Shown here: positions 6,649-50,459 of the stretch, one piece after another
Position numbering within the stretch: position 1 is the first letter of the stretch
Layout: each line of letters starts with the position of its first letter
Origin: Actinomycetospora lemnae
Lineage (GTDB): Bacteria > Actinomycetota > Actinomycetes > Mycobacteriales > Pseudonocardiaceae
DNA: 64,000 nt
Assembly (NCBI RefSeq): GCF_028737315.1
Contig: NZ_JAQZAO010000001.1
Coordinates: forward strand, 310,001-374,000
Direction of reading: 5' to 3'
The notes under the pieces: model-generated
The model's input: the letters and a program-made list of their open reading frames with translations, nothing else
Databases searched by the model: none
What the model was told of the DNA's origin: nothing
Made by a program: the position numbers and the translations under genes

Positions 6649-8493
6649 TCAGACGGCACGACGTCGCCAGGGATCGCCGGATCGTGGCTGAGCTTCGCGA
6701 CGCCGCCAGGAGTCGATCTCGGCCGGCCAGCCGTCGACCTCGTCCCGGCGCTGCCCGCTCTCGTGCCCGGGTCGCGCCGCGCCGCGCTTGAGCGTGCTCA
6801 GGTCCGCGCCTCGATCACGACGCGAGTCGTCGGGTTCGGCGTCGCGTTCCCCGAGCGATGGGTCTTCCCCGAGCGGTGGGTCTTCCCCGAGCGGTGGGTC
6901 GAGCGCGGGCGAGCGCACCGACCAGCGGTGCCCGGACGGCGAGGTCCAGACGATCACCGGGGCGCTGCCCCCGTCCGGGTCGGGGGCGAGGGCCGCCGAC
7001 CACTCCCCGTGCGTCTTGATCCGGTGATGTCGCCGGCACGCGGGCTTGAGCGTGTCGGCGCGGGTGCGCCCGGCGCCGCCGCCCGGCCGGGCGTGCTCGT
7101 AGCGCACGACGTGGTCGAGGTCGCACCGCGAGGCCGGCACCCGGCACCCGGGCGCCGCGCACGTCATGTCCCGCGCCCGGACGAGATCCTGCATCGACGC
7201 GGGTGGTCGGTAGCGGCGGGCGTCGAGGTGGGCGGCGGTGCCCGTGACCGGATCGGTGAGGAGCCTCCGCCACCACGCGTCCGGGCCGCTCGCCAGGCGC
7301 CGGGCCATCGCGGCGGGGAGCGGGCCGTGGCCCTCGAGCTCGCCGGGCCGGTCGGAGAAGCCGGCCAGGACGTCCCAGCCGACCGTCACCCGCACCTCGG
7401 TGCGCACCGGCGAACGCGACCTCCGCCGGAGGCCGCGCACCGGGTCCCGCGCGTCAGCAGCCTCTGCGTCGCCGCCCGCTTCGTCCTCGATGCGGTCGTC
7501 ATCGGCGTGCTCGTCCCCGGCGTGGTCGCCCAGGTCGCGGCCCGGTGCGGGGTCGACGGTGCCGCCGCCCGCCGTCGCGTCACCCGCCGTCGCGTCACCC
7601 GCCGTCCCGTCGCCTGCCACGCCGTCGGCGCCCGTGCCGTCACCCGCGGTGCCGCCGCCACAGCAGCAGCCCCCGGCGTCGGCGGTGGCGCCGTCGAGGA
7701 TCAGGTCGCGGGCGCTGTCGGCGCGCTTCTGCGCCAGGGTGCGCTGCTCGCCGTCCGGCGCGTCGCCGGCGGCGCGGGCGAGCGCGTCGATGATCGAGTA
7801 CACACCCCGCGCCTCGTCGCCGGGGAGACGCAGCTGGACCACGCCGGTGGCCCCGTGGTCCTCCGACCAGTAGCGCAGCTCGCGGGACTTCCGGGCCTGC
7901 TCGGGCCGCCGGCGGACCATGTCGGGATCCAGGCGCGCCACGATGCGGCGGACGACGTCGCGCAGCTGGCTCGGCGTGCGCTCACGCGCCGGCCGTGACC
8001 ACAGCTCGGCGTCCACGGCCCGGGCGGTCCCCGAGTCGCACAGCTCGGTCTGCTCGAGCACCACCCGCGCGTGGCTCAGCGAGATGCGCCCCTCCTCGAG
8101 CGCCACCAGCGTGAGCGGCAGGCAGTCGAGCAGGGTCTCGGCCTGGAGGACGCGGATCTCGCCGGTGCGCGGGGCGACGCGTGCCATGGCGGCGACCTCC
8201 ATCGCCACCGACTCGGACGCCAGCTCGCCCCGCCCGGCGCCGCGAGCCCGGGCCTGGCGCGCCTGCAGGTAGTGGGCGGTCTCGCGGTAGAGCCGACCGG
8301 TCGCCCAGTTGACGATCGCCTCCCACCCGGCGAGCCGCTCGGCCGAGTCGTGGCCCTCGTCGTCGACGAGGTCGACGGGTCGGGAGGCCTCCAGCCCGGC
8401 CGCGAGCTCCGGCCCCGGCACCCACTGCGACCACGGAGGCGCGGCGGACGGACGTGGCTCCCCGGCCACCGCCGCCCATCCGTTATCGAACAC
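6649..8493 (-). CDS. 13E12-repeat (DUF222) protein with degenerate HNH nuclease motif
   Basis: A 614-residue protein of the multicopy actinobacterial 13E12 family: an N-terminal DUF222 helical domain, a variable acidic Gly/Asp/Thr linker with short repeats (residues about 290-360), and a C-terminal HNH region with paired cysteines (CAAPGC) and DLDHV...CRRHHRIKTH. The Asn usual in the middle of the motif is replaced (ADTL instead of xxNL), so cutting activity is doubtful. The GTG start lies inside a perfect LexA box and no ribosome binding site is visible, so translation may be leaderless; an in-frame GTG 21 bases further upstream is an alternative. C-terminal PPLGED repeats also occur. Confidence 0.8.
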   Translation of the reverse strand: MFDNGWAAVAGEPRPSAAPPWSQWVPGPELAAGLEASRPVDLVDDEGHDSAERLAGWEAIVNWATGRLYRETAHYLQARQARARGAGRGELASESVAMEVAAMARVAPRTGEIRVLQAETLLDCLPLTLVALEEGRISLSHARVVLEQTELCDSGTARAVDAELWSRPARERTPSQLRDVVRRIVARLDPDMVRRRPEQARKSRELRYWSEDHGATGVVQLRLPGDEARGVYSIIDALARAAGDAPDGEQRTLAQKRADSARDLILDGATADAGGCCCGGGTAGDGTGADGVAGDGTAGDATAGDATAGGGTVDPAPGRDLGDHAGDEHADDDRIEDEAGGDAEAADARDPVRGLRRRSRSPVRTEVRVTVGWDVLAGFSDRPGELEGHGPLPAAMARRLASGPDAWWRRLLTDPVTGTAAHLDARRYRPPASMQDLVRARDMTCAAPGCRVPASRCDLDHVVRYEHARPGGGAGRTRADTLKPACRRHHRIKTHGEWSAALAPDPDGGSAPVIVWTSPSGHRWSVRSPALDPPLGEDPPLGEDPSLGERDAEPDDSRRDRGADLSTLKRGAARPGHESGQRRDEVDGWPAEIDSWRRREAQPRSGDPWRRRAV

Positions 8494-8502: not shown

Positions 8503-8761
8503 GATACCAGTCACACCGGCGGTGCGGGTGGCGACGGCGAGAGCTACGGTCCGTCCCCAGCACGTGGTTGCGCCTAGGGTTCCGCCCGCCTCCCGCCGCC
8601 CAGCCCACAACCAGGGACGGCCGGGGTCTGGACCGAGCGGCGCCACGGCCGCCCCCGACCCACGGTCCGGGCCGGTCGACACCTGACGGGAGAGAAGCCC
8701 CGAGGGCTCCTGTTCGACGTGCCCGCTCCACAGCGGGCAGCGACACCAGGGAGCCTCCTCG

Positions 8762-36841: not shown

Positions 36842-39178
36842 ATGGGCATCGCGGACCTCGACGCCGGTGGGTTGCCGGTCGAGGTCCTCGACGCGATCGA
36901 CCCGGCCGGGCTGGCCGGCGCCGAGGTCGTGAACTTCGCCCGCGACTGCTTCCGGGCCCGCAATCGCGCCACCGCCCGCTTGCTGACTGCGCTGCACGAG
37001 GCCGGCCGCACCGAGGAAGGGCAGAAGGGTCGCCGGGCGCTGCTCGACGAGTTCTCCGGCGACGAGGCCGCCGCCGCCCTGGGCTGGTCGCGGGCGATGG
37101 CCTGCCGCTGGCTGGGCCTGGCCGACGACCTGCTGCGCCGCCTGCCCGAGGTCCACGCCGCCATGCGTGCCGGTGAGCTCGAGGACACCAAGGCCCGGGT
37201 GCTCTCGGACTGGACCCGCGACCTGGCCGACGACCACGCCCACCACGTCTGCGGTGAGGTCCTGCCCGAGGCCCCGCGGCTGCCGGTCGGGGCGCTGATC
37301 GAACGCATCCAGCAGCTCGCCGCCGCCCTCGACCCCGACTGGGCGGCGCGCCGCGAGCAGGCCGCGGAGAAACGCGCCCGCGTGCTGGCCTCGCGCAACC
37401 CGACCGGCACGGCGAACCTGGCCGGCTACGACCTGCCCGTGGAGCGGGCCGCGGTCAGCATGGCCCGCCTGGAGGCCCTCGCCGCCGCGCTACGCCGCCG
37501 CGGGGTACCGGTGCGGGTCGAGGCCCTGCGCGCCGAGGTCTACCTGACCCTGCTCGACGGCACCGCCGCCGGCCTCGACGACGACACCCTGCTCGACCTG
37601 CTGGTCACCCACCTCACCCCACCCGACGCCGACGGCCGGGGCGAAGGCCCCAGCGACGACGGCCCCGACGACCAGGGACCCGGCGACGGCGGGCCGAGCG
37701 AGGGCGGGCCGAGCGATGGCGGGCCGGTCGATGGCGGGCCGAGCGATGGCGGGCCGAGCGAGCCGGGCGGCGGTGGTGGCTCCGACGACGACGGCGGTCG
37801 GGGTGATAGCGGCACCGAGGCTCGCCGAGGTCGCGACGACGAGGGGCCGGACGAGCCCGCATCCGACGTGGGCGCGGACGAGCGTGACGGCAGCCCAAGC
37901 GGGTCGAGTCCCTCGCCCGACGAGTCACGCGGCGCGCGAGCCTCGGCCGATGACGCCACCACTGACCACACCCCGCACGACGACGACTCGCACGACAACG
38001 ACTCGGGCCATGCGCTCACCGACGGTGGGCCAGGCGACGACGAGCCAGGCGACGACGACGTGGACCAGGCCCCGAGCGGCGAAGCCCCGACAGGGCAGGC
38101 CCCGCAGGGTCCGGTGGTGCGGGACGGCACCGTCGAGGTGCGGCTGCGGCTGAGCACCGCCCTCGGGCTCGACGAGCTACCCGCCCAGATCCCCCGCTGG
38201 GGCACCGCCCTCGCCCCCACCGCCCGCTGCCTGCTCCAGCGCTACCACCACGGCCAATGGCGCATCGCGCTCACCGACGACACCGGCCACCTCCAGCACC
38301 TCCTGCTCACCCGCCACCGCCCCGACCCGCCGAGCGAGGCCCCCGCAGGCCCCGGGCGACCACCCCGCCCCCGCCGCGACCGGCGGCGGGGGCGCCACGG
38401 ACCAGCCATCGTCGAACTCCAGGTCCCGACGACGCTGCTCGCTGCCCTCGACCCCGCCGACCACCCCACCTGGCACGCCCTGCTCACCGACCTCCACCGC
38501 CACCTGCCCCGGCCCACCGCAGACGGTGAACCACGCGCGCCCGACGACCACCTCGACCCCGCCGCCGCCACCCACCGCCGACCCACCGCCGAGATCGACC
38601 GCTGGGTCCGCGCCCGCGACCGCCACTGCATCGCCCCGTCCTGCCGCGAGCCCGCCCACGCCACCGACCTCGACCACACCACCGACCACGCCCACGGCGG
38701 GCCCACCCTCACCAGCAACCTCGGCGCCCTGTGCCGCCACCACCACCGCGCCAAACACCACGGCCGCTGGCGCCTCACCCAACCGAGCCCCGGCCACTTC
38801 CAGATCACCACCCGCGCCGGCGCCACCTACGACACCCACCCACCCCGCATCACCGACCCCCTCCCGGCACCCCGCCCCGCCACCACCCCACGACCCCTGC
38901 CAGCGGACCTCCACCACCTCGACCACACCCACGACCACACCCACGACGACACCGCCGACGACGAACCCGCCGACGTCACCGCCCGGCTGTTCAGCCGCCG
39001 CCTCATGTCGCCCACGGCCGTCACGCCCGACGGCCCACACCGCAGGCCCGCCCGCCACGCCCGACCGCCCCGCACCCCCGGCCTCTACGACCTGCTGCGC
39101 CAGGCCCACCGCGACGCCCAGAACCCGCAACGGGCCGCCACACGGATCGACCCCGACCCCGACCCGCCGCCCTTCTGA
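36842..39178 (+). CDS. 13E12-repeat (DUF222) HNH endonuclease family protein
   Basis: A 778-residue member of the same family as the gene at 6649-8493. The N-terminal DUF222 part covers about 1-250. A very acidic linker (about 260-425) rich in Asp, Gly, Pro and Ser includes five in-frame GGPS(D/E)-type repeats. The C-terminal HNH region has paired Cys (CIAPSC), DLDHTTDHAHGGP, TSNLGALCRHHH, so the central Asn missing from the first copy is present. ATG start. No LexA box is seen upstream. Function is unproven; the family is linked to DNA damage response and repeats in genomes. Confidence 0.82.
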   Translation: MGIADLDAGGLPVEVLDAIDPAGLAGAEVVNFARDCFRARNRATARLLTALHEAGRTEEGQKGRRALLDEFSGDEAAAALGWSRAMACRWLGLADDLLRRLPEVHAAMRAGELEDTKARVLSDWTRDLADDHAHHVCGEVLPEAPRLPVGALIERIQQLAAALDPDWAARREQAAEKRARVLASRNPTGTANLAGYDLPVERAAVSMARLEALAAALRRRGVPVRVEALRAEVYLTLLDGTAAGLDDDTLLDLLVTHLTPPDADGRGEGPSDDGPDDQGPGDGGPSEGGPSDGGPVDGGPSDGGPSEPGGGGGSDDDGGRGDSGTEARRGRDDEGPDEPASDVGADERDGSPSGSSPSPDESRGARASADDATTDHTPHDDDSHDNDSGHALTDGGPGDDEPGDDDVDQAPSGEAPTGQAPQGPVVRDGTVEVRLRLSTALGLDELPAQIPRWGTALAPTARCLLQRYHHGQWRIALTDDTGHLQHLLLTRHRPDPPSEAPAGPGRPPRPRRDRRRGRHGPAIVELQVPTTLLAALDPADHPTWHALLTDLHRHLPRPTADGEPRAPDDHLDPAAATHRRPTAEIDRWVRARDRHCIAPSCREPAHATDLDHTTDHAHGGPTLTSNLGALCRHHHRAKHHGRWRLTQPSPGHFQITTRAGATYDTHPPRITDPLPAPRPATTPRPLPADLHHLDHTHDHTHDDTADDEPADVTARLFSRRLMSPTAVTPDGPHRRPARHARPPRTPGLYDLLRQAHRDAQNPQRAATRIDPDPDPPPF
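37688..37762 (+). repeat. Five 15-bp in-frame tandem repeats in the 13E12 linker
   Basis: Unit GGCGGGCCGAGCGAT with one or two changes per copy, exactly 5 x 15 bp, coding for repeated Gly-Gly-Pro-Ser/Val-Asp/Glu. The length is a multiple of three, so copy-number change keeps the frame. Confidence 0.9.
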
Positions 39179-39320
39179 GGGACCACGCCGATCCAGTTCG
39201 CCGGCCGCTCGGGTGGACGCCCGCAACTCGGGCGACGCACGGTCGGCAGCCCGCTGCGGCACTCCTGGGAGGGGCCGGTCCGGCACCGGATCCGCCAACC
39301 ACTGCTCGGAGCCACCGCCT

Positions 39321-39378
39321 CGGAGCGCGGCACCCCGGAGCGCGGCCTCGGAGCGCGGCACCCCGGAGCGCGGCACCC
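39321..39378. repeat. Tandem repeat CGGAGCGCGGCACCC after the second 13E12 gene
   Basis: Four copies (15, 13, 15, 15 bp) plus a partial fifth, in the 271-bp gap 39179-39449 that otherwise shows no gene. GC-rich slippage repeat. Confidence 0.85.
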
Positions 39379-39449
39379 CGGAGCCGTCACCCCCCGAGCC
39401 GCCGACCCAGGGCCCGCCGTGACGCGAGGGCAGCCAGCCGACCCTCGCC

Positions 39450-40070
39450 TCAGAGCAGCACGTCGTCGACGTGCACGAGCACCGCCACCGGCTCGAGGCC
39501 CGTCGAGTTCCGGATCCCGTCCGCCACCACCGCGCGGATCCGCGTCCCGAGCGCGACGAGGTCCGCGCCGTACTCCGCGGCCAGGGTGATCGCGACGACC
39601 GTCGAGGACCCGGCCACGCCGGCCGTCACCTCCGGCCCGCCGTCCAGGCTCGTCTCCGGACCCCCGCCGGCGGCCACGAGGTGACTCAGCGCCACCCGCA
39701 CGCCCGGCACCCGCGAAGCCAGGTGGCGGGCGAGGGCGACGACCACCCGCGCGCTGACCCGCGTCCGTCCCCGCGGCTCCTCGATGCGCCCGAACTCCGG
39801 GTCGGCGGCCACCCCGCGGATGCGGCGCAACGCCTCGTCGAGCAGGCCGTCGGGGGCCTGCGGACGGTGGTCGGCGACGGCGCGGACGGGCGCCCAGAGC
39901 CGGTCGAACTCGGCCAGGGCGGCCTGGCAGTAGGGGCAGTCGCGCTGGTGGGCGTCCCGGCGGTCGGCCGCGCCGTCGGCGACCTGCGCGACGAGCGCCG
40001 CCGCGTCGCGCCCGCAGGCCAGGCGGCCCTCGAGCGGCGCGGTGGCCGAGGGGGTGCGCTCCTGGGTCAT
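39450..40070 (-). CDS. Asp23/Gls24-family protein with N-terminal zinc-finger-like anti-sigma motif
   Basis: A 206-residue protein. Residues 10-70 contain HQRDCPYCQAALAEF, the H-x3-C-x2-C pattern of zinc-binding anti-sigma factors, and residues 95-206 form an Asp23/Gls24 alkaline-shock domain. Its ATG overlaps the stop of the ECF sigma gene (ATGA). By position it is the likely anti-sigma or envelope-stress partner of that sigma factor. No transmembrane helix is visible, so it is a soluble sensor. Confidence 0.75.
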   Translation of the reverse strand: MTQERTPSATAPLEGRLACGRDAAALVAQVADGAADRRDAHQRDCPYCQAALAEFDRLWAPVRAVADHRPQAPDGLLDEALRRIRGVAADPEFGRIEEPRGRTRVSARVVVALARHLASRVPGVRVALSHLVAAGGGPETSLDGGPEVTAGVAGSSTVVAITLAAEYGADLVALGTRIRAVVADGIRNSTGLEPVAVLVHVDDVLL

Positions 40071-40654
40071 GTCCAGTCCTTCATCTCGGACATCAGGGTG
40101 GCGCGGGCGCGGGCCAGTCGCCCGCGCACCGTGGCCTCGCTGGTCTTGGTGACGGCCGCCGCGTCGCGGTACGACAGGCCCTCGAGCTGCACCAGCACGA
40201 GCGGCACCCGCTGATCTTCGGGCAGGCGGCTGATCGCGGCGAGCCCGGCCTGCAGCTCCTCGCCCGCCAGCACCCGGCTCTCCGGGCCCGCGACCCGGGG
40301 GTGGTCGGCGTCGGCGAGCTGGTCGTGGGGCCGCTGGCCGCGGCGGTGGTTCAGGCACCGGTTGACGACGACGCGGTAGAGCCAGGTGGTGAACGCCGAC
40401 GTCCCGGCGAAGCCGGACAGCGCCGTCCAGAGCTGGATGACGACCTCCTGCGCGACGTCGTCGGCGTCGGCGGGACTGCCGAGCATGCGCAGCGCGATCC
40501 GGTAGATCCGGTCGCGGTGCCGGCGGACCAGCTCCTCGTAGGCGCCCTGGTCGCCGGACCGGGCCCTGCCCACCAGCCAGCGGTCGGCCTCGTCGTCGAG
40601 GCCGGCCGAGGCCCGGGTGCCGCCCGGGCCGGGGTCACGCCCCGGCACGCTCAC
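40067..40654 (-). CDS. ECF sigma factor
   Basis: A 195-residue sigma-70-family factor with region 2 (about 30-100; YRIALRMLGSPADADDVAQE) and region 4 (about 135-190; LPEDQRVPLVLVQLEGLSYRDAAA). GTG start at 40654; a short Gly/Pro-rich leader precedes region 2. Cotranscribed with the zinc-motif Asp23 gene. No target promoter motif could be extracted from one copy. Confidence 0.88.
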   Translation of the reverse strand: MSVPGRDPGPGGTRASAGLDDEADRWLVGRARSGDQGAYEELVRRHRDRIYRIALRMLGSPADADDVAQEVVIQLWTALSGFAGTSAFTTWLYRVVVNRCLNHRRGQRPHDQLADADHPRVAGPESRVLAGEELQAGLAAISRLPEDQRVPLVLVQLEGLSYRDAAAVTKTSEATVRGRLARARATLMSEMKDWT

Positions 40655-40733
40655 GCGCGGAAGCTTCCCACGTCCGGCCGTGGGCAACCGATCATCGTTG
40701 CCCGCGTGGGGGAACGCACGCGAGCATGCACCC

Positions 40734-41075
40734 GTGACCCCCGGAACCAGCGGCCTGGGCGTCGTCCGACGCCTCGCCGCGCGCGGACACCCCGTCGTCC
40801 TCGGCGCCCGCGACCCCGACGACCTCCTGCGCCTCGGCGCCCGCGTCGTCATGGTCTCCAGCGGCGCCGGGTCGTCCGGCGAGATGCAGGGCGGGAGCGG
40901 CGTGCCCGCGTACGCGGTGAGCGAGGCCGCGCTGGACATGGTCACCGTCACGCTCGCCGCCGACCTGCGACCGCGCGGCGTGCTCGTCGACGCCGTGTGC
41001 CCCGGCCGGGTCGCCACCGACATGGGCGGCCGTGGCCGGCGATCGGCGCCCGCCCCGCGCGCCGGCCGCCCGTGA
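40734..41075 (+). pseudogene. Short-chain dehydrogenase remnant with internal deletion
   Basis: 113 codons. The start (GTSGLGVVRRLAARGHPVVLGAR) is the Rossmann segment of an SDR, but it jumps from about codon 33 directly to VVMVSSGAGSSG and the YxxxS remnant of the catalytic region (AYAVSEAALDM), skipping roughly 90 residues including NAG. The active-site YxxxK reads YAVSE, so Lys is lost too. The tail becomes Arg/Pro-rich. Clearly non-functional as an SDR. Its stop overlaps the DUF427 start. Confidence 0.75.
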
Positions 41076-41761
41076 CGCGCCCGGCGGGCCCGCCCGCGCC
41101 CGCCGTCCCGGTCGGTCACGTCGAGCCGTGCCCGCGCCGCATCCGGGCACGGCTCGGCGGCCGGGTCGTCGTCGACACCCTCGCCGCGCGCTACGTGTGG
41201 GAGCACCCCTGGTACCCGCGCTGGGCCGTCCCCGTCGACGACGTGGACCCCGCGGCGCTGGCCGCGGACCCCGGGCACCGGCGCCTCGACGGTGAGCTCG
41301 CGGGCACGGTCGCCCTGACGTGGTCGGCGTTCGACGCCTGGTTCGAGGAGGACGAGGAGGTCGCCGTCCACCCGCGCAGCCCCTACGTGCGGGTGGACGC
41401 CCTGCGCTCGCGACGCCACGTGCGGGTCGAGCTCGACGGGGTCGTGCTCGCGGAGTCCGACGCCCCGGTCCTGCTCTTCGAGACCGGCCTGCCGACCCGC
41501 GCCTACCTCGACCCCACCGCCGTCGACCACACCCGCCTCGAGCCGTCGACGACCCGCACCGCCTGCCCCTACAAAGGCGTGACCAGCCGCTACTGGTCGG
41601 TGCGCACCCCGACCGGGCGCCACGACGACCTCGCGTGGAGCTACGAGCACCCGGCCCCGGCCGTCGCGCGCATCGCGGGGCTGGTGGCGTTCTACGACGA
41701 GCGCGTGGACATGGTCGTCGACGGCGTGGCCCAGCCCCGGCCCCGGACGCACCTGGCCTGA
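41072..41761 (+). CDS. DUF427 domain protein
   Basis: A 229-residue protein with two copies of the DUF427 fold, about 20-95 (RRIRARLGGRVVVDT, YVWEHPWYPRWAVP) and 110-215 (VRVELDGVVLAESDAPVLLFETGLPTRAY, CPYKGVTSRYWS). The family has no known reaction; structures show small beta barrels. GTG start overlapping the SDR remnant. Convergent with the HAD gene 7 bp away. Confidence 0.85.
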   Translation: MTRPAGPPAPAVPVGHVEPCPRRIRARLGGRVVVDTLAARYVWEHPWYPRWAVPVDDVDPAALAADPGHRRLDGELAGTVALTWSAFDAWFEEDEEVAVHPRSPYVRVDALRSRRHVRVELDGVVLAESDAPVLLFETGLPTRAYLDPTAVDHTRLEPSTTRTACPYKGVTSRYWSVRTPTGRHDDLAWSYEHPAPAVARIAGLVAFYDERVDMVVDGVAQPRPRTHLA

Positions 41762-41768
41762 GCGTCCC

Positions 41769-42569
41769 TCAGACCTCGGTCTGCGCCAGCAACCAGGCCG
41801 CGATCTCCTCCCCCGCCGCGAGGCCCGTGGTGGTGGTGACCGCGACGTGGGCGAAGCCCCGGCCCGCGGTGTGGAGTCGGCCGTCGACCGGCTGGATGCC
41901 CGCGTCGGCGGCCTCCAGCATGTCGGCGTCGAGCGGGGAGTCCCCCGCCGCGACGACGCGCCGTGCCCCGGTCCGCCGGCGGACCTCCTCGACCGCGGCG
42001 CCCTTGGTCAGCGCGGCGGGCAGCACGTGGACCTTCTCCCCGTGGGCCACGACCCGCCAGCCGCGGACGTCGCACTCCGCCGCGAGCTCCTCGAGCCACC
42101 CCGCCGGCCACCGGACCCGGACCACGAGGAAGCAGCCGTCGGCGTCGCGCACGGGGCCCGCCACGTCGAGCCGGGCGAGGTGCCGGACCAGCACGTCCGC
42201 GACCTCGCCGATCGGCGCCACGCCCGCGAGCCGGTCCCGCACCACCGCCGACCAGTCACCGTCGAGCTCGCCCCCGGTGAGCAGCACCCCGCCGCCCGCG
42301 CACACCACGAAGGGCGGCGCCACGCCCAGCCGACCCTCGAGGTCGAGGCGCCGGTACTCGGCGACCGACCGGGTGGTGGCCGGCAACCAGAGCGCACGAC
42401 GGTCGAGCTCGCCGAGCCGGGCGGCGCAGCGGCGGGTCAGCTGGGCGGTCACCACGCCCCGGACCCGTTCCAGGCCGAGGACCGGCCCCGCGACCTGCGG
42501 CCCGGCGGCGCGGGCGGAGTGCACGAGGGTCCGGTCGAGGTCGGTGGCGGCCAGCAGCGACGTGATCAA
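41769..42569 (-). CDS. HAD-family phosphatase of the Ter-associated pathway
   Basis: A 266-residue HAD hydrolase. Motif I is DLDRTL (Asp10, Asp12), and motifs III/IV are the Lys in ALTKGAAV near 200 and AGDSPLDADML near 218-228. It resembles sucrose-phosphatase/Cof-type HADs. The TTG start overlaps the stop of the PRTase-TRSP-StiP gene (TTGA), so they are made together. In tellurium-associated operons such a HAD removes a phosphate in a predicted nucleoside-like biosynthesis. Confidence 0.8.
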   Translation of the reverse strand: MITSLLAATDLDRTLVHSARAAGPQVAGPVLGLERVRGVVTAQLTRRCAARLGELDRRALWLPATTRSVAEYRRLDLEGRLGVAPPFVVCAGGGVLLTGGELDGDWSAVVRDRLAGVAPIGEVADVLVRHLARLDVAGPVRDADGCFLVVRVRWPAGWLEELAAECDVRGWRVVAHGEKVHVLPAALTKGAAVEEVRRRTGARRVVAAGDSPLDADMLEAADAGIQPVDGRLHTAGRGFAHVAVTTTTGLAAGEEIAAWLLAQTEV

Positions 42570-44959
42570 CGCCCCGCCCGGAGCACGGCCACGGACCGGT
42601 AGGGCGAGGGGATCCCGCCCGCGCGGTCCGGGAGCGGCCGGGTCGGGACGCGGCGCTCGGCGCACAGCCGCCGGACGGGCTCGAGCTCGGCCCCGGCGTC
42701 GCGGGCGACGAGCACCGCGATGGGATCGCGGCGCAGCAGGGTCCGCAACGTCTCCCCCACCCCGGCGCGCAGGCGGCGCTCGCCCGCCACGTCCAGGTCG
42801 CGGGCGAGGGCCGCGAGGTAGCGGGGGCCGCGACCGTCGGGCCCGGCGACGGGAGCGATGCCGGGAGACGCGCCGAAGCAGCCGGTGATCGCGTCGAGGA
42901 CGACGGCCGTCCGGTCACCGGCCGCGAGCTCCCCGTAGACCTTGGCGCCGTGGTGGGCGCCGGCGACGGTCAGGTCGTGCCGGTCGACCGTGCGCGAGAC
43001 CAGCCCGGACGCCGTGGCGTTGAGGCACGCGTGCGGCACCAGCAGGTCCTCGCGGGTGCCGCACAGCGGGGTCCGGTGGGCGGGGTCGGCCAGCACCGCG
43101 ACGGTCGGGTCGACGACGACGCCGGTCTCCCGCGCGTGGCGGTCGAGGTCGGCGCCCACCTCGTCGACGATGCCACCGGCACCGGTCCACCCGTCGACGA
43201 GCACGAGCGAGGAGGGGTCGTGGGCGGCGACGAGCGCGCCGAGCGCCGCGCGGTCCAGCCCCCGGCCGCGGACGACGCTGATCGCGTAGTGCGGTAGCGC
43301 CACGCCCCGGACCCGCGCCGCCCACCGGCGCATCAGCACCCCGACCGGCGTGCCCGCCCGCGCCAGCGACACGAGCACGGCCCCCGGGCCCCGCTGCGCG
43401 AGCACCTGGTCGGTGAGGACGCCGACCGCCGCCGCCACCCCCGGCGCCGACCGCTCGACGGCCCGGTCGACCACCCGCGCGTAGGCCGGGCTCGGGGCCG
43501 GCTCCCGCGGGAGGGCGTCCGCGTAGTGCGCGCCGGTGGCGAGGGCGGCCTCCCGCTCGGCGACCCCGACCTCGAGGGCGTGGCACGACAGGTCGCTGAG
43601 CAGCCAGCCCACCTCGGCGGGCGCGAACGTCCCGAACGCGGGTCCGCGGCGCGCGGCGACGACGGGACGTCGCGTCACGGGCCGCGGCGCCCGGCACGGC
43701 ACCACCGCCTCGACCACCCGCGGCACGACCGCGCCGAGGCGGGCGAGCAGGCCGTCGGGTGCCCGCAGGGCGGCGGTGCGCGCCGCGGCGTCCACCACGA
43801 GGACGACGGCGTCGTACCGGCCGGTGCCGAGGCCGTACACGTAGCGCTCCGGCGCGTGGGCCAGCGCCTGGTCGTGCGCCGCGAACGCCCGGGCCTCGCG
43901 CACCGCGTAGCCGGCGACGTCCCGGGCGACCAGCGGGGACCGGCTGGTCGCCGCGACCTCGACGTCCAGGCCACGGGCCTCGAGGGCCTCGGCGAGCCGG
44001 ACCGGCAGGTAGTGGAGCTCCTCGCACCCGAGGACGAGCACGCGCCCGGCGCCGCGCCCGAGCGCCTCGACCAGCACGTCCGCGGCACCGGGGACGGCGG
44101 CGTCCAGCGCGGCGCGTCCGGGCCGGTCGAGGCCGTGCCGCGCGCCCTCCGCGGCACCGTCGAGCGGCAGGGACACCGAGGACAGCGGGACCGCCGCGGC
44201 GACCGGGCACGCGGTCGTGTCCGGCTGCGCGGTCGTGTCCGGCTGCGCGGCGAGCAGGGCGGCCGCCCGCGCGAGCACGTCGTCGGGTCCCGTGAGCGCC
44301 GCCCGGGCGAGGGCCACCACGTCGACCCGGACGTCCAGGTCGGCGGCGGCGCAGGCGATCGCGTCCTCGGCGGGCTCCCGCAGGTCGGCCAGCGTCGCGA
44401 CGACGTATCGACGGCGCGGCAGCCGCCGCTGCAGCCGGCGCAGGGCCGCGGCGACGGTGCGACCGGTGGTGAGCTCGTCGTCGACGAGCACGAGCGGGCG
44501 GTCCGGCGTCCAGCTGCCCGGGTCGTCGGGGACGAGGACGTGGCGCGGGGCGTGGCTGTGCTCCTCGTCGAACGCGGCCAGCACGGAGGCCCCCGCGACG
44601 ACCCGCCGCGTCGTGTGGACGACGTGCTCGGCGTCCAGCGCGTCCGCGACGAGGTGGGCGAGCGCCGTCGCGTTCTCGGCGAACCCGATCACCACCGGCG
44701 CGGCGGCGACGTCGGGCAGCCGGCGCGCAGCCCGGTCCGCGAGCGCCGCGGCCGCCGCCCGCACCCGGGCGGGGGCGACGGGGACGTGCTTGCCGAGGAC
44801 GCGGGACACCGGCAGGTGCGCCCGCCGGGGGTTGCGGCGCAGGGCGAGGCCGACGACGTCGCGCACCGGCACGCTCTCCTCGTCCGGCCCGAGCGCGAGG
44901 CCGAGGGCCTCCGCGACGACCTCACCGGGCCACGTCCCGTCCGTCGCCACGTCACCCAC
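42566..44959 (-). CDS. Fusion of phosphoribosyltransferase, TRSP domain and StiP-type (PELOTA/PRTase) protein
   Basis: A 797-residue protein joining two genes that are usually separate in Ter operons. Residues 1-230 are a PRTase with the PRPP loop VLVDDELTTGRT (157-168); residues 260-430 are the TRSP domain with the motif TSRSP (338-342); residues 442-797 match StiP (LLSDL, HYADALPRE, VSLARAGTPVG at 530-540, PHYAIS, VDGWTGAG at 588-595). A QPDTTAQPDTTA repeat forms part of the linker near 239-250. GTG start with AAGGA. The pathway is predicted to make a nucleoside-like metabolite; TerD, ATP-grasp and CitE partners are not in this window. Confidence 0.82.
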   Translation of the reverse strand: MGDVATDGTWPGEVVAEALGLALGPDEESVPVRDVVGLALRRNPRRAHLPVSRVLGKHVPVAPARVRAAAAALADRAARRLPDVAAAPVVIGFAENATALAHLVADALDAEHVVHTTRRVVAGASVLAAFDEEHSHAPRHVLVPDDPGSWTPDRPLVLVDDELTTGRTVAAALRRLQRRLPRRRYVVATLADLREPAEDAIACAAADLDVRVDVVALARAALTGPDDVLARAAALLAAQPDTTAQPDTTACPVAAAVPLSSVSLPLDGAAEGARHGLDRPGRAALDAAVPGAADVLVEALGRGAGRVLVLGCEELHYLPVRLAEALEARGLDVEVAATSRSPLVARDVAGYAVREARAFAAHDQALAHAPERYVYGLGTGRYDAVVLVVDAAARTAALRAPDGLLARLGAVVPRVVEAVVPCRAPRPVTRRPVVAARRGPAFGTFAPAEVGWLLSDLSCHALEVGVAEREAALATGAHYADALPREPAPSPAYARVVDRAVERSAPGVAAAVGVLTDQVLAQRGPGAVLVSLARAGTPVGVLMRRWAARVRGVALPHYAISVVRGRGLDRAALGALVAAHDPSSLVLVDGWTGAGGIVDEVGADLDRHARETGVVVDPTVAVLADPAHRTPLCGTREDLLVPHACLNATASGLVSRTVDRHDLTVAGAHHGAKVYGELAAGDRTAVVLDAITGCFGASPGIAPVAGPDGRGPRYLAALARDLDVAGERRLRAGVGETLRTLLRRDPIAVLVARDAGAELEPVRRLCAERRVPTRPLPDRAGGIPSPYRSVAVLRAGR

Positions 44960-45031
44960 GGGTGTCCTTGATGCCAGACGCACCCGTCGGGCACCACCGA
45001 CGTGACCCGACCGGGGCGAGGATGGACGGTG

Positions 45032-45703
45032 ATGGCTCCCGACCCCGCCGACCCGGTCCGGCACTGGCCGCTGGCCGGGCTCGTCCTGCGGACGCCGCGG
45101 CTCGAGCTGCGTCCCGACGACGACGTCGGCCTCGCCGCGCTCGCCGACCGGGCCCTCGACGGCGTCCACCCCGCCGAGGAGATGCCGTTCCTCGAGCCGT
45201 GGACCGACGGCGCCGCCGACCCGGGCTTCGCCCGCGGGGTCATGCAGTACGCCTGGCGGTGCCGCGCCGAGGTCTCCCCGGCGCGGTGGTCGGTGAACTT
45301 CCTGGTCCGCGAGGGCGGGCGGGTGCTCGGGATGCAGACGCTGACGGCGACCGAGTTCGGCGTCCTGGGCGAGGTCAGCACGGGCTCGTGGCTGACCCGC
45401 GCCGCGCAGGGCCGGGGCCTCGGCACGGAGATGCGCCAGGCCGTCGTCACGCTCGCGTTCGAGCACCTCGGGGCCCGCGCGGCCCGGACCAGCGCGTTCG
45501 CCGACAACGTCGCCTCCCGGCGCGTGTCCGACCGGCTCGGCTACACCCCGGACGGCGTCGAGCGCCACGTCCGCCGCGGTCGCTCCGCGCTCCTGCTCCG
45601 CAACCGGCTCACCCCGGACGCGTGGCGACGGCCGGAGTGGACGCTCGGCGTCGCCGGAGTCGGGCCCTGCCGCGAGCTGCTGGGGGTGCCCGACCCCGGC
45701 TGA
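45032..45703 (+). CDS. GNAT N-acetyltransferase (RimJ/RimL-like)
   Basis: A 223-residue acetyltransferase. The acetyl-CoA pyrophosphate loop is AAQGRGLGTEMRQAV near residues 131-145, and the ending GRSALLLRNRLTPDAW is typical of RimJ/L-type enzymes. Acceptor unknown. ATG at 45032 is used; a GTG one codon earlier is possible. It diverges from the StiP fusion gene across 72 bp. Confidence 0.88.
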   Translation: MAPDPADPVRHWPLAGLVLRTPRLELRPDDDVGLAALADRALDGVHPAEEMPFLEPWTDGAADPGFARGVMQYAWRCRAEVSPARWSVNFLVREGGRVLGMQTLTATEFGVLGEVSTGSWLTRAAQGRGLGTEMRQAVVTLAFEHLGARAARTSAFADNVASRRVSDRLGYTPDGVERHVRRGRSALLLRNRLTPDAWRRPEWTLGVAGVGPCRELLGVPDPG

Positions 45704-45779
45704 CCGGTGCCGGCCACGCCCGGGACGTCCAGCACGACACGCCGCCGTTCGGCGACACCATCGGGGAAAGACCGACGCT

Positions 45780-45793
45780 CGGGGGATCCCCCG
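45780..45793. promoter_or_regulatory. Perfect 14-bp palindrome upstream of the repeat-rich membrane protein
   Basis: CGGGGGATCCCCCG, 50 bp before the ATG and just upstream of a TTGACG hexamer (45797-45802). Possible operator; GC-rich chance palindrome also possible. Confidence 0.25.
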
Positions 45794-45843
45794 GGCTTGA
45801 CGACGGGGTAGACCTCGATCACCGATGCCGACCGGGGGGACCG

Positions 45844-47019
45844 ATGTCGCACGCCGCGCCGACCGCCGCACCGACCGATGCGTGGGTCGACGCTGCGCGC
45901 CCCCGGACCGCGACCCGCCGCGAACGGCCCCGCCACAGCCCCCGCCACAGCCCCCGCCACAGCCCCCGTCACACCCCCCGTCACACCCCCCGCCACGACC
46001 TCCCGACCGCGGCCCGCAGCGAACGCCGGCGCCGCGCCGCGCGCGTGCGTCGCCGGCCGCTGCGGGTGCTGATGATGGTGCTCGTCGCCGGACTGTGCGC
46101 CGGGGTGTTCCTCGTCGTCCTCGAGACCGCGCTCGCCGACCCCGGGGCCCGGCGCTCGGCGCTGTCCGCCGTCGACCCCGACGAGGCGGTCGCCCCCGGC
46201 CCGCTGCCCTACGGAGGGCAGCTCGACCGCCCCGACCCCTCCGACCTCGTCGACCCCGGCAGCCTGCTGGGGCTCGGGCTGCTGACGCTCGGGCTGCTCA
46301 ACGGCCTCGTGTTCCTCGGGACGGCGACGTGGGACGGGATGGTCGCCCCCTCGGCGGCCGAGACCCGGCGGCGGCTGCGCACCCGCTCGGGACGCGGGGC
46401 CGTGCCCGGCGGCCGGCGGGAGGTGCGGCGGACGGTCGCCGCCCCGTCCGCGGCCCCGGCCGCCTCCTCGGGCCCGGCGGTCGTCGACGTCCCCGCCCGC
46501 CGCAGCGTGCCCGGCCGCCCGGCCGCGGGGACCACCTACGCGCCGCTGCCCGAGGCCGTGCCCGTGCGGGCGGCCCGGCGCACGGTCGTCGCGCCGGGGC
46601 CGGTCGGGGATCCGGACGTCCCGGTCGTGCCGCCGAGCCGGTTCGCGGAGCCGAAGCGGCTCATGGAGCCGGCCACGGTGCCGGCGAGCACCCCGGTGCC
46701 GGTGCCCGCCGCCGAGCCCGTCCCCGAGCCCGTCCCCGAGCCGGTCGTCGAGCCCGTCCCCGAGCCCGTCCCCGAGCCCGTCCCCGAGCCGGTCGCCGAG
46801 CCCGCGCCGACCCCGGAACCGGCGGGCGCCGAGCCGGACCCCGAGCCCGAGCCCGTCCCGTCGCTCATCCCCACGCCCCGGCGCCCCTCCCCCGTGCCCC
46901 GGGACGGCGGCGACGGGACCCCGGCGCGCGCCACGCGGCGCGGCTCCGGGCCCTGGGGCTGGCGCCCGGCCCGCCCGGACCCGGTGCCCTGGCGCAACCC
47001 GGTCCCGGCGTTCTCCTGA
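45844..47019 (+). CDS. Membrane protein with basic HSPR/HTPR and acidic PEPV repeats
   Basis: A 391-residue protein of unknown function. Residues 30-51 repeat H(S/T)PR six times, giving a very basic tail; two hydrophobic helices follow (about 75-94 and 140-158); the rest is Pro-rich with tandem Glu-Pro-Val-Pro repeats (about 285-320). The layout suggests both repeat regions on the cytoplasmic side or a surface stalk, depending on topology. ATG start. No family recognised. Its stop and that of the next gene are linked by a 15-bp tandem duplication. Confidence 0.6.
   Translation: MSHAAPTAAPTDAWVDAARPRTATRRERPRHSPRHSPRHSPRHTPRHTPRHDLPTAARSERRRRAARVRRRPLRVLMMVLVAGLCAGVFLVVLETALADPGARRSALSAVDPDEAVAPGPLPYGGQLDRPDPSDLVDPGSLLGLGLLTLGLLNGLVFLGTATWDGMVAPSAAETRRRLRTRSGRGAVPGGRREVRRTVAAPSAAPAASSGPAVVDVPARRSVPGRPAAGTTYAPLPEAVPVRAARRTVVAPGPVGDPDVPVVPPSRFAEPKRLMEPATVPASTPVPVPAAEPVPEPVPEPVVEPVPEPVPEPVPEPVAEPAPTPEPAGAEPDPEPEPVPSLIPTPRRPSPVPRDGGDGTPARATRRGSGPWGWRPARPDPVPWRNPVPAFS
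45926..45998 (+). repeat. 12-bp tandem repeats coding for H(S/T)PR
   Basis: Six copies of a CGCCACAGCCCC-like unit, the last ones with ACC for AGC. In frame, so copy number can vary without disrupting the gene. No unique spacers, so not CRISPR. Confidence 0.85.
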
Positions 47020-47043
47020 TCAGCGGCCTCCTGATCAGCGGCC
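47015..47043. repeat. 15-bp tandem duplication across two convergent stop codons
   Basis: CCTGATCAGCGGCCT followed by CCTGATCAGCGGCC. The first copy holds the stop of the membrane protein gene, the second the stop of the serine hydrolase gene on the other strand. Confidence 0.7.
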
Positions 47044-48165
47044 GAGCGCGTCCTCGACGGCGCGGGTGAAGGCCCCGAACACCGACGCGGTCGGCGGCAG
47101 CACCTGGGTCACGAGCACCGCCGCGAGGTCGTGCCCGGGCCAGGAGTACCAGAGCGTCCCCAGCCCGCCGGCCCACCCGTAGCGGGGCCCGACCGGCGAG
47201 GACACGACCCCGACCCCGTACCCCCAGCCGCCCCCGTCCAGGAACGGTGCGGCACCAGGGGCGGCGCGCTGCTCCGGCGTGAGGTGGTCGGTCGTCATCA
47301 GCGTGACCGCGGCGGGATCGAGCACCTCGCCGCCGTCGTCGAGCAGCATCCCGGCGAAGCGCAGCAGGTCCGCCGCGGTCCCGACCAGGCCGCCCCGGCC
47401 GTCGGGGAACGTCGGCGGGGCGAGCCACCGGCTGTCGGCGACGCCGTCGAGCACCGCGAGCCCACGGTCCTCCCCGCGCACGAACGCGGGCACCAGGCGC
47501 TCCGGGCCGGCGACGAACCCGGTGTCGGTCATGCCGAGCGGGGCGAGCAGCCGGTCCGCGAGCACCTCGGGCAGCGGACGCCCGGCGGCCCGCGCGAGCA
47601 GGAGCCCGAGCACGGCGAAGGACAGCTCGTAGCGCCAGGCCGTGCCGGGCTGCTCGAGCAGCGGCAGCGTCGCGAGGCGGGCGAGCCAGGTCTCGGGCTC
47701 CGGGAGGCCCTGCGGGTCCGGCGGCCCGAAGCCGAGCCCGAGCTCGGCGGCGCGGTCGACCGTCGGGCACGGGCCCTCGGGGACGAAGCCGAGGCCCATG
47801 CGCATGGTGAGCAGGTCCTCGACCGCGAGGGGCCGACGGGCGGGGACGGTCTCGCCGTCGGGGTCCGCCGACGGTCGCGGCAGCACCCGCCGCTGCGCCA
47901 GCTCGGGCAGCAGGCGGTCGACGGGCTCGTCGAGCGCGAGGAGCCCGTCGGCGGCCAGGCGCAGCGTCAGCGCCGCGATCAGCGGCTTGGTGTTCGAGCT
48001 GAGCCGGACGACGGCGTCGGGCCGCAGCGGTTCGTCGCCGCCGGGCGCGCTGACGCCCGTCGCCGCGAGGCTCGTCGTCCCACGGTGCCGGACGCCCGCG
48101 AGGGCGCCCGGCACGTCGGCGGCCGGGAGTGCCGCGAGGATCTCCTCGGCGTCCACCCCGGCCAC
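47035..48165 (-). CDS. Serine hydrolase, beta-lactamase/class C-like fold
   Basis: A 376-residue penicillin-binding-protein-like hydrolase. The active-site SxxK is Ser57-Asn-Thr-Lys60 (RLSSNTK); the second motif is YEL near residue 178 (YxS rather than YxN), and a GWAGG stretch near 330 stands for the KTG-like third motif. No signal peptide is seen, so it is probably cytoplasmic and an esterase or peptidase rather than a beta-lactamase. GTG start. The PASTA gene lies 9 bp upstream in the same direction. Confidence 0.85.
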   Translation of the reverse strand: MAGVDAEEILAALPAADVPGALAGVRHRGTTSLAATGVSAPGGDEPLRPDAVVRLSSNTKPLIAALTLRLAADGLLALDEPVDRLLPELAQRRVLPRPSADPDGETVPARRPLAVEDLLTMRMGLGFVPEGPCPTVDRAAELGLGFGPPDPQGLPEPETWLARLATLPLLEQPGTAWRYELSFAVLGLLLARAAGRPLPEVLADRLLAPLGMTDTGFVAGPERLVPAFVRGEDRGLAVLDGVADSRWLAPPTFPDGRGGLVGTAADLLRFAGMLLDDGGEVLDPAAVTLMTTDHLTPEQRAAPGAAPFLDGGGWGYGVGVVSSPVGPRYGWAGGLGTLWYSWPGHDLAAVLVTQVLPPTASVFGAFTRAVEDALGR

Positions 48166-48174
48166 CGTCGGTCG

Positions 48175-48570
48175 TCAGCCGTTGAAGCCGCCGCCGGCCG
48201 GTCCGATCGGGCTCGGCTCGGGACGCACGCCCCCGCCGCCACCGCCGGAGCCGTCCTCGTCGTCCGGGTCGGGCCCGGTGGGGGTGCGGGCGGCCCCGCC
48301 CTGGATCCAGATGCCGACCTCGGCGCCGCGCTCGCGCTTCTCGCCGGCGGCGGGCTCCTGGTCCTCCACGTGGCCCCGTCCGGCCCCGGTGTGCACGGCG
48401 TTGCGGCCCACGGCCATCACGCCGGCGTCGAGGGCACGGTCGTGCGCCTCGGCGGCGGGCAGGCCCACGAGCTCGGGCACCGTGGTCATCCCCTCGGGCA
48501 GGTCCTGGGTCGTGTCCTGGGCCATGTCCTCGGTCGTCCCCTCGGTCTCGCGCATCTCGTCGGTGTGCAT
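48175..48570 (-). CDS. PASTA-domain protein
   Basis: A 131-residue protein. After an acidic Thr/Glu/Met-rich head (1-28), residues 29-90 form one PASTA domain (TVPELVGLPAAEAHDRALDAG), then a Gly/Pro-rich tail. PASTA domains bind peptidoglycan or beta-lactams in Ser/Thr kinases, but single-domain versions without signal or membrane helix, as here, have no defined role. ATG at 48570 with AAGGGA; an ATG 27 bases upstream is an alternative start. Confidence 0.8.
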   Translation of the reverse strand: MHTDEMRETEGTTEDMAQDTTQDLPEGMTTVPELVGLPAAEAHDRALDAGVMAVGRNAVHTGAGRGHVEDQEPAAGEKRERGAEVGIWIQGGAARTPTGPDPDDEDGSGGGGGGVRPEPSPIGPAGGGFNG

Positions 48571-48908
48571 CGTCGTCCCTTCCGGCGTACCGGCCATGAC
48601 CGACGCATACCCATCATGCCGGTGCCGTGATGCTGCGTCGGGGGTCACCCCGGGTCCCCGGGGTCCGTCCGGCCTCCTCCGAGGTCCTCGCACCCCCGCG
48701 CCGCGACGTCCTGCAGCCGGCGCCGGACGGTGTCGCAGGCGTCGTCCACCCCGGCCGTGACACCGACCGCCCCCTGCTGGGCCGCCCCGCGGACTGATCC
48801 GCACCAGGGCGTGAGCGCCCGCGCACGGTCCGAAGTGTGCCTTGACCTGCCCGTTCGTCCTGCGCTTTGGTCGGTCTACCAAACACGGCGCGGCGCGAGG
48901 GGCAGGCC
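48571..48908. other. 338-bp intergenic region between PASTA and FAD-monooxygenase genes
   Basis: Divergent promoter region. It holds the TTTGGT...ACCAAA palindrome at 48866 and a TTGACC hexamer at 48842. On the minus strand one frame has coding-like composition (an Asp/Val/Arg helix around 48690-48760) but no start with a ribosome binding site, so I do not call a gene. Confidence 0.5.
48866..48883. promoter_or_regulatory. TetR-type operator before the FAD monooxygenase gene
   Basis: TTTGGT-CGGTCT-ACCAAA, perfect 6-bp arms, 25 bp before the ATG. Size and position suit the TetR regulator encoded two genes on in the same operon. Confidence 0.55.
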
Positions 48909-50459
48909 ATGGAGACCGACGGGGTGCTGGTGGTCGGAGCCGGACCGGTGGGGTTGACGGCGGCGTGCGGGCTCGCGCGCCTCGGCGTCCCGGTGCGGGT
49001 GGTCGACGCCCTGGAGACGCCGACGACCCAGTCGCGCGCCGTCGCGATCCACGCCCGCAGCCTGGAGACGCTGGCGTCGCTGGAGGTGCTGCCCGCGCTG
49101 GAGGGCCGGGGCCGCCGGATCGCCGGGCTCGCGATGGTCGACGGCCGCACGGGCGAGCCGCGGGCGGACGTCGACTTCACCGGCATCCCCAGCCGGCACC
49201 CCTACATCCTCGACATCGCCCAGCCCGACACCGAGGCGGTGCTCGCCGAGCGGGCCGCCGCCCTCGGCATCGTCGTGGAGCGGGGCGTCACGCTGACCGC
49301 GCTGCGCCAGGACGACGATGGCGTCGAGGTCACCCTGCGCACCGGCGGCGAGGAGCACACGGCCCGCGTGGGCTGGGTCGTCGGCGCCGACGGCGGCCAC
49401 AGCACCACGCGCCACCTCGTCGGCACCCACCTCGAGGGCGCGTTCCACGGCCAGCACTTCGCCATGGCCGACGTCGACGTCGCGACCGACCTCTCCCCGG
49501 ACGTCCTGCGGATGTTCACCCACCCCGACGGACTCGCGATGCTCTTCCCCCTCGCCGGGAGCCGCGCCCGGGTCATGTTCCTCGTCGAGGACCCCGGCAC
49601 CGACGCCCCGGACCCCACGCTCGAGCAGGTCCAGGCCCTCGCCGACGCGCGGATGGGCGGGCGCGTGCAGCTCTCCGACCCCCGCTGGGTGACGTACTTC
49701 GAGGTCCACCACGCCCAGGTCCCGCAGTACCGCCACGGACGGGTCCTGCTCGCCGGCGACGCCGCGCACATCCACAGCCCGGCCGGCGCGCAGGGCATGA
49801 ACACCGGCATCCAGGACGCGGCGAACCTCGCGTGGAAGCTCGGGCTGGTCGCCACCGGCCGGGCGGACGCGGGTCTGCTCGACAGCTACCACGACGAGCG
49901 CCACCCGGTCGGCGCCGCGGTCGTGAAGCTGACGACGGTGATGACCGACGTCGCGGCCCTCTCGGGCGTCGCGGCCGCCTGCCGCAACGCCGCCCTGTTC
50001 GTCGCGGGCCACGTCCACCGGCTCACCGACACCCTCGCCACGACCGCGGCCGAGCTGACGATCGCCTACACCGACAGCGCGTTGTCCGTGCAGAGCGGCT
50101 CTCGCGGCACCGCCCGCGCCGGCGACCACGCCCCCGACCCGGACGGGCTGCGCCGCCCCGACGGCACCCCGGTGGCCGTCGAGGACCTGCTGGCCCGGCC
50201 CGGGTTCCTGCTGCTGGTCCGGGGCGCCGGAGAGGGCCTGGCCGAGGTGCTCGGGGACCTCGGCACGGTCGTCCGGGTCGGGGAGGACGTGCTCGACCCC
50301 GATGACGCCCTCGCCGCGGCGTACGGGTGGCGCGACGGGGGCATGGCGCTCGTCCGCCCCGACGGTTACCTGGGGCTCGTCGCGGACACGACCGACCCCG
50401 CCGTCCTGCGCCGCTACCTCGCGAGGACGCTGCACGTCGCGACACCGACCCCGGCCTGA
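48909..50459 (+). CDS. FAD-dependent aromatic monooxygenase (PheA/TetX-like)
   Basis: A 516-residue group A flavoprotein hydroxylase. FAD motif GAGPVG lies at residues 10-15, the DG motif in GADGGHS near 158-164, and the GD motif GDAAHIHSPAGAQGMNTGI near 285-303. A C-terminal thioredoxin-like domain (from about 400) lacks an obvious CxxC. The family hydroxylates phenols, polyketides and drugs; the substrate is open. ATG start; the TetR gene follows 16 bp on. Confidence 0.88.
   Translation: METDGVLVVGAGPVGLTAACGLARLGVPVRVVDALETPTTQSRAVAIHARSLETLASLEVLPALEGRGRRIAGLAMVDGRTGEPRADVDFTGIPSRHPYILDIAQPDTEAVLAERAAALGIVVERGVTLTALRQDDDGVEVTLRTGGEEHTARVGWVVGADGGHSTTRHLVGTHLEGAFHGQHFAMADVDVATDLSPDVLRMFTHPDGLAMLFPLAGSRARVMFLVEDPGTDAPDPTLEQVQALADARMGGRVQLSDPRWVTYFEVHHAQVPQYRHGRVLLAGDAAHIHSPAGAQGMNTGIQDAANLAWKLGLVATGRADAGLLDSYHDERHPVGAAVVKLTTVMTDVAALSGVAAACRNAALFVAGHVHRLTDTLATTAAELTIAYTDSALSVQSGSRGTARAGDHAPDPDGLRRPDGTPVAVEDLLARPGFLLLVRGAGEGLAEVLGDLGTVVRVGEDVLDPDDALAAAYGWRDGGMALVRPDGYLGLVADTTDPAVLRRYLARTLHVATPTPA

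Follow-up and report, generated by a model that had tools for sequence, protein, structure and literature searches.

A 64,000-nucleotide stretch of the Actinomycetospora lemnae genome (contig NZ_JAQZAO010000001.1, positions 310,001 to 374,000; here called the window) contains a two-gene module: a fused gene that joins PRTase_2, TRSP, StiP and PELOTA_1 domains in one chain, and an overlapping gene for a HAD phosphatase. We show that this unit is kept in the genus Actinomycetospora in a background that lacks TerD and the CitE enzyme typical of tellurium-associated (Ter) clusters. On the basis of its sequence, we give about even chances to the view that the module is a core of the predicted Ter nucleoside pathway in a Ter-independent form, in which an enzyme using phosphoribosyl pyrophosphate (PRPP) and a phosphatase would yield a nucleoside-like product. 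The Ter-associated nucleoside module was reportedly set out in 2012 by Anantharaman, Iyer and Aravind. In ordinary Ter clusters the many other genes present make this branch difficult to study on its own. In A. lemnae the branch comes down to two neighbouring genes in a background that has neither TerD nor Ter-type CitE, which makes the question of its product directly testable. The reduced set suggests that CitE carries out an elaboration step rather than a core one, and that the core can be useful without the Ter membrane complex. In the available sections of earlier work, Ter phosphoribosyltransferases (PRTases) and HAD enzymes are described as making a nucleoside or nucleotide signal, possibly sensed by TerB and TerD (PMC7824862); the Ter biosynthetic cluster is predicted to yield a nucleoside-like metabolite, with an unclear link to the TerC complex, and terZ-F suffices for tellurite resistance (PMC8115787); and TerD appears solely as a protein that might bind specialised nucleotides (PMC7159879). 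The accessible literature yielded no study of a fused or Ter-free version, and fused or stand-alone copies may already have been noted in the founding 2012 paper.

The fused open reading frame is continuous, with no internal stop, and starts at a GTG at position 44959 that is preceded by AAGGA (Table 1). All four of its domains exceed the curated Pfam cut-offs (StiP, E = 6.7e-76; PRTase_2, 6.7e-57; TRSP, 6.9e-28; PELOTA_1, 5.8e-9). A first-pass annotation of this DNA had proposed PRTase_2, TRSP and StiP in one chain and the presence of three enzymes of the predicted Ter nucleoside branch, the first two of them fused; both proposals were borne out, and PELOTA_1 had not been named there. The end coordinate given in that annotation, 44959, coincides with the GTG start. 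The TTG that we chose as the probable start codon of the HAD gene overlaps the stop codon of the fused gene (TTGA). Profile matches of the HAD protein are HAD-IIB/MPGP-like (best E = 7.6e-8), every one of them under the family cut-off. Its motifs ATTRS/T, K and GDSPLDA are present in all eight aligned Actinomycetospora copies and DLDRT in seven of the eight; the first motif is absent from the main frame of the copy in genome G793, in which the start of the HAD gene is spread over two frames (L138, about 8104–8143), possibly through a frame change. We read the module as a two-gene unit because neighbouring genes bound it on both sides: a GNAT gene starts 42 bp from the start of the fused gene, and a convergent gene ends 7 bp from the HAD stop.

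What makes this locus of interest is the TerD-free, CitE-free state of a module that is under selection and has a changed StiP loop. TerD, TerC-like, CitE and ATP-grasp genes had no match in the 19.5 kb around the module (L084), in agreement with the first-pass claim that TerD, ATP-grasp and CitE-like genes are missing nearby. Across the whole genome (6.06 Mb, 30 contigs, 99.72% complete), TerD was not found. Matches to the Ter-type CitE profile (C-C_Bond_Lyase; best 24.3 bits for a single stretch, 31.6 per frame) and to ATPgrasp_Ter were weak and lay on contigs other than that of the module. A lack of partners elsewhere in the genome holds for TerD and, apart from these weak matches, for CitE; genome-wide absence of a Ter ATP-grasp is not proven, because the profile PF15632 misses the actinobacterial form, scoring below 28 bits in G060, G067 and G081 despite an adjacent Ter ATP-grasp gene located by tblastn, and is not diagnostic in actinobacteria. 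The orphan neighbourhoods read, among them short ones such as L141 (8.5 kb) and L147 (9.4 kb), contained no ATP-grasp match.

The orphan (TerD-less) state is unusual. Among 298 genomes sampled from the order, 68 have StiP, 73 have TerD and 66 have both (Fisher p = 2e-55, a statistic that ignores relatedness); the only two with StiP and no TerD are A. lemnae and G147 (88% complete, 670 contigs). A family-wide protein scan matched the fused protein in 16 of 249 genomes, namely nine of 16 Actinomycetospora, one of genus g308, two of g309 and four of g11. TerD was detected in 22 of the 43 genomes searched but in none of 18 Actinomycetospora; it was also found in none of the three g308/g309 genomes and was present in all four of g11, so that TerD-less modules are known in three genera (9 + 1 + 2 genomes). 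The Ter-type CitE profile scored 360–416 bits in 11/11 Ter-linked genomes versus at most 53.5 bits (G834) in the 12 orphan genomes, and weak generic CitE-like matches occur in Ter-linked genomes too. The g308/g309 cassettes (G704, G826 and G770, of the same family) likewise hold PRTase_2-TRSP, StiP-PELOTA and HAD in genomes where no TerD or Ter-type CitE was found, but their two enzymes are separate proteins and all three keep a StiP loop lysine that Actinomycetospora has lost. The earlier suggestion of a minimal form of the pathway fits this recurrence of the same set, unfused, in two other genera. Outside actinobacteria, plasmid pUSDA94-1 of Bradyrhizobium elkanii (L188:4132-7065) carries PRTase_2-TRSP, a hypothetical protein in the place of HAD, and StiP; the 13 kb read contains no gene annotated as TerD or CitE. 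The cassette differs in being unfused and in having the third gene between the other two. IS66 genes lie downstream of this possible orphan cassette.

The likeness to the Ter-associated nucleoside module lies in PRTase_2-TRSP, StiP-PELOTA and HAD following the order of actinobacterial Ter clusters, whereas the A. lemnae locus has no TerC-like, CitE or ATP-grasp genes nearby and no TerD genome-wide. In annotated relatives the gene order is a gene in the ATP-grasp position, CitE, PRTase_2-TRSP, StiP and HAD, surrounded by TerD and TerC-like genes. By tblastn mapping, all 25 actinobacterial loci with an adjacent CitE are collinear on one strand (CitE, PRTase_2/TRSP, StiP, HAD), and 24 of them have a TerD match within the stretch read. 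The fusion therefore joined neighbours. In a Deinococcus locus and other non-actinobacterial loci, HAD sits between the two other genes. The fusion supports the idea that the two halves work together, but it does not set the A. lemnae locus apart: fused genes are common and recur next to ordinary Ter genes. Counting as fused any copy with both halves in one stop-free frame, the 68 StiP genomes of the order sample comprise 31 fused, 34 split and three unclear cases (upstream half not in the sequence at hand), and the state changes at least 12 times on a tree of 88 rows. In genus g78 (family f18), probably Streptomyces, all 11 genomes that match the fused protein are fused, alongside TerD, TerC-like and CitE genes. 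These fused genes encode the same four-domain chain followed by HAD (47–49% identity in the six of 11 matched in one piece), and they differ from the A. lemnae gene in adjoining CitE, TerC-like and several TerD genes and in keeping the StiP loop lysine. This catalogue of fused versions, which the first-pass annotation had proposed, does not support its use of the fusion as a distinguishing mark, and we rejected the fusion as a novelty. Two irregular StiP loci were also seen: in L186 (G033, a member of the order) StiP runs over two frames and the best TerD matches are likewise cut short, which may reflect decay or poor assembly of a Ter cluster, and a Streptomyces plasmid (L091:8295-9425) has StiP with no PRTase_2 match in the 18 kb read and an alcohol dehydrogenase-type gene after it.

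All domains of the module are under purifying selection. The ratio of nonsynonymous to synonymous change (omega, by simple NG86), calculated for six pairs among eight Actinomycetospora copies, was 0.14–0.54 in every domain and pair. As a reference for conservation we used positions conserved at 95% or more in 77 other sequences, which we call Ter-linked and which include G147, where TerD was not found. Of these strongly conserved positions, 45 of 50 in the first half of the fused protein and 75 of 118 in the second are invariant in the eight copies. Residues V157–E162, G166 and T168 of PRTase_2 are invariant in the eight, and the genus retains the PRTase_2 signature as well as the ExHSH and TRR motifs.

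The PRPP-binding loop of PRTase_2, LVLVDDELTTGRT, is intact in A. lemnae and matches the loops of PyrR chains (E = 1.9e-4) and APRT chains (E = 0.006). Through this loop, PRTase_2 would transfer ribose-5-phosphate to a base-like acceptor; TRSP and StiP might then handle the tethered nucleotide or modify it further, PELOTA could provide an RNA-linked or regulatory contact, and the HAD enzyme would strip phosphate to release a nucleoside-like product. In Actinomycetospora this product would probably serve in the absence of the TerD/TerC membrane complex, and the altered StiP loop suggests that substrate or ligand use has shifted. Sequence supports PRPP chemistry only for the PRTase_2 step; what StiP does, which acceptor is used, how RNA is involved and what is made are inferred.

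Several observations weigh against the module being such a core. It is absent from seven of the 16 scanned Actinomycetospora genomes, hence dispensable, and both g309 genomes are only 87% complete. The stem of the Actinomycetospora branch is long (1.11 changes per column in the 88-row tree and 1.03 in a 34-row tree). The fused copy of Actinomycetospora straminea, the closest named relative found (best segment 84%), and of G814 has a frame change near residue 197 (L068, about 8585–8591; G814:C31, about 2642–2669), either a real break or an assembly error, and the HAD start of the G793 copy lies in a different frame. Of the two PRTase-like proteins that the first-pass annotation had counted, only PRTase_2 is shown to be one; a second PRTase in StiP could not be shown, its motif resemblance finding no further sequence support: StiP gave an hhalign probability below 1% against the PRTase_2 and TRSP profiles and no significant PRTase match among Protein Data Bank chains, and a Pribosyltran match (E = 0.11) appeared in one of 19 StiP members searched with Pfam. 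Finally, the lysine of the StiP loop DGWTGKG (K594), a conserved feature defined in this analysis and not a published criterion, is lost in all nine Actinomycetospora copies (A, G, T or S in the eight aligned, A in G814). It is K in 77/77 Ter-linked sequences and 3/3 from g308/g309 (80/80 other aligned actinobacterial proteins), and in all 16 other rows of a diverse StiP set. Residue 594 is A in A. lemnae, and a change of A596 to G accompanies the loss in the eight aligned copies. Because type I PRTases vary at the matching place, HGPRT having Lys and APRT having Gly, the K594 change need not abolish ligand binding.

One alternative, which we regard as possible but put forward tentatively, is that after loss of Ter the fused enzyme of Actinomycetospora, with its two linked active-site domains, and the phosphatase were repurposed for a different Ter-independent nucleoside-like metabolite, or for RNA modification; the replacement of K594 by A, G, S or T in the StiP loop would mark this switch of function. 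The trees allow a single loss of Ter or several. The TerD-less modules cluster together (SH-aLRT support 87 in the 88-row tree; 92/88 in the 34-row tree), and the orphan state maps as one change on the 88-row tree. We do not claim a single origin, since a grouping of Actinomycetospora with g78 was not rejected in the 34-row tree (approximately unbiased test, p = 0.379). Several Actinomycetospora tree rows have a deviant letter composition.

The fused protein could instead be a PRPP-dependent RNA modifier, in which PELOTA docks a structured, kink-turn-like RNA, PRTase_2 and StiP modify it and HAD clears leftover phosphate. We consider this unlikely, although PELOTA_1 scores over its cut-off here and is matched by 19/19 diverse StiP proteins (at E up to 1, best 2.5e-36), and although its profile resembles L7Ae/eL8 RNA-binding proteins around KPGVGETTR/KKGTNETTK (E = 0.0025). 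The PELOTA motif is partly eroded in Actinomycetospora, where K731 is replaced by R in 8/8 copies and P732 varies. PELOTA also has the highest nonsynonymous divergence of the fused-protein domains in five of six pairs, and no Rfam RNA was found at positions 38000–49000.

The next explanation, that the module is a decaying remnant of a Ter cluster whose remaining parts were deleted, seems improbable to us. It would fit the long stem, the loss of K594 and the frame-disrupted A. straminea/G814 copy, as well as the absence of the module in close relatives of a carrier. In G874 the GNAT start lies about 10 bp past the stop of the convergent gene with no module between, and only the first ~55 GNAT residues match; G851 lacks both the module and the GNAT gene, and the carrier G793 is also without a GNAT match. 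A tree of the flanking gene places G851 and G874 beside G793 (98/98), which points to module loss. The module of G843 lacks both flanks, and among the matches listed there was none to the module region in G873 (59% complete) or G874 (83%). Against decay, omega is well below 1 throughout, the catalytic motifs of PRTase_2 and HAD are retained, the fused gene is uninterrupted in eight of nine Actinomycetospora copies, and the same reduced set occurs in two other genera.

It is doubtful, too, that the module still relies on an ATP-grasp, CitE or sensor encoded elsewhere in the genome and too diverged for our profiles to detect. A diverged ATP-grasp could escape PF15632 as the adjacent ones in G060, G067 and G081 do, and in some orphan genomes generic CitE-like proteins exceed the family cut-off, up to the G834 score given above. 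However, TerD was found in none of the 18 Actinomycetospora genomes while being detected in about half of the genomes searched, and Ter CitE scores are sharply bimodal, with generic matches in Ter-linked genomes as well. A role for StiP as a cysteine protease in a proteolytic stress response, as its Pfam family name would have it, is very improbable, because no cysteine is invariant among 19 diverse members and 8/8 Actinomycetospora copies have lost C629, which 75 of 77 Ter-linked sequences keep. The cysteine protease label of PF11202 may thus mislead annotation. We dropped a defence or phage origin of the module: PADLOC (0 families) and PHROGs gave no match for the fused or HAD protein, and the three records aligned by tblastn in a phage collection each cover the StiP-PELOTA part only.

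Table 1. Features of the module and its flanks (positions in the window).
Feature	Position	Strand	Basis
Fused gene PRTase_2-TRSP-StiP-PELOTA_1 (P0001), 797 aa	42566..44959	minus	Pfam; translation; GTG start with upstream AAGGA
PRTase_2 domain, residues 36-220	44300..44854	minus	Pfam; PRPP-loop signature LVLVDDELTTGRT; loop matches PyrR/APRT chains
TRSP domain, residues 271-406	43742..44149	minus	Pfam
StiP domain, residues 443-691	42887..43633	minus	Pfam; alignments; loop DGWTGAGGI versus DGWTGKGAI typical of relatives
PELOTA_1 domain, residues 713-793, L7Ae-like	42581..42823	minus	Pfam; profile match to L7Ae chains, best E 0.0025
HAD-IIB-like phosphatase gene, 266 aa	41769..42569	minus	Putative TTG start; profile matches; motifs
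GNAT acetyltransferase gene, divergent flank	45002..45703	plus	Pfam; flank conserved in six other genomes of the genus
Convergent flanking gene, start approximate	41105..41761	plus	Conserved flank; borders empty site

The GNAT gene probably does not belong to the module, and the convergent gene is presumably DUF427-like. When five orphan neighbourhoods were compared, no further gene was clearly common to them; apart from frames lying antisense to the module, the only match was a weak one of 89 residues linking the two g309 loci, and we rejected the idea of a shared accessory gene. A scan for promoters and terminators, a method poorly suited to such G+C-rich DNA, found none. An Asp23-family gene lies near the module (window 39450-40358, minus strand; Pfam) and also near the flanking gene in six other Actinomycetospora genomes. 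On the other side, window 47035-48165 encodes a protein of the Pfam Beta-lactamase family whose best NCBIfam match is AcmB-like and under its cut-off; it is more likely an esterase-type enzyme than the product of a drug-resistance gene.

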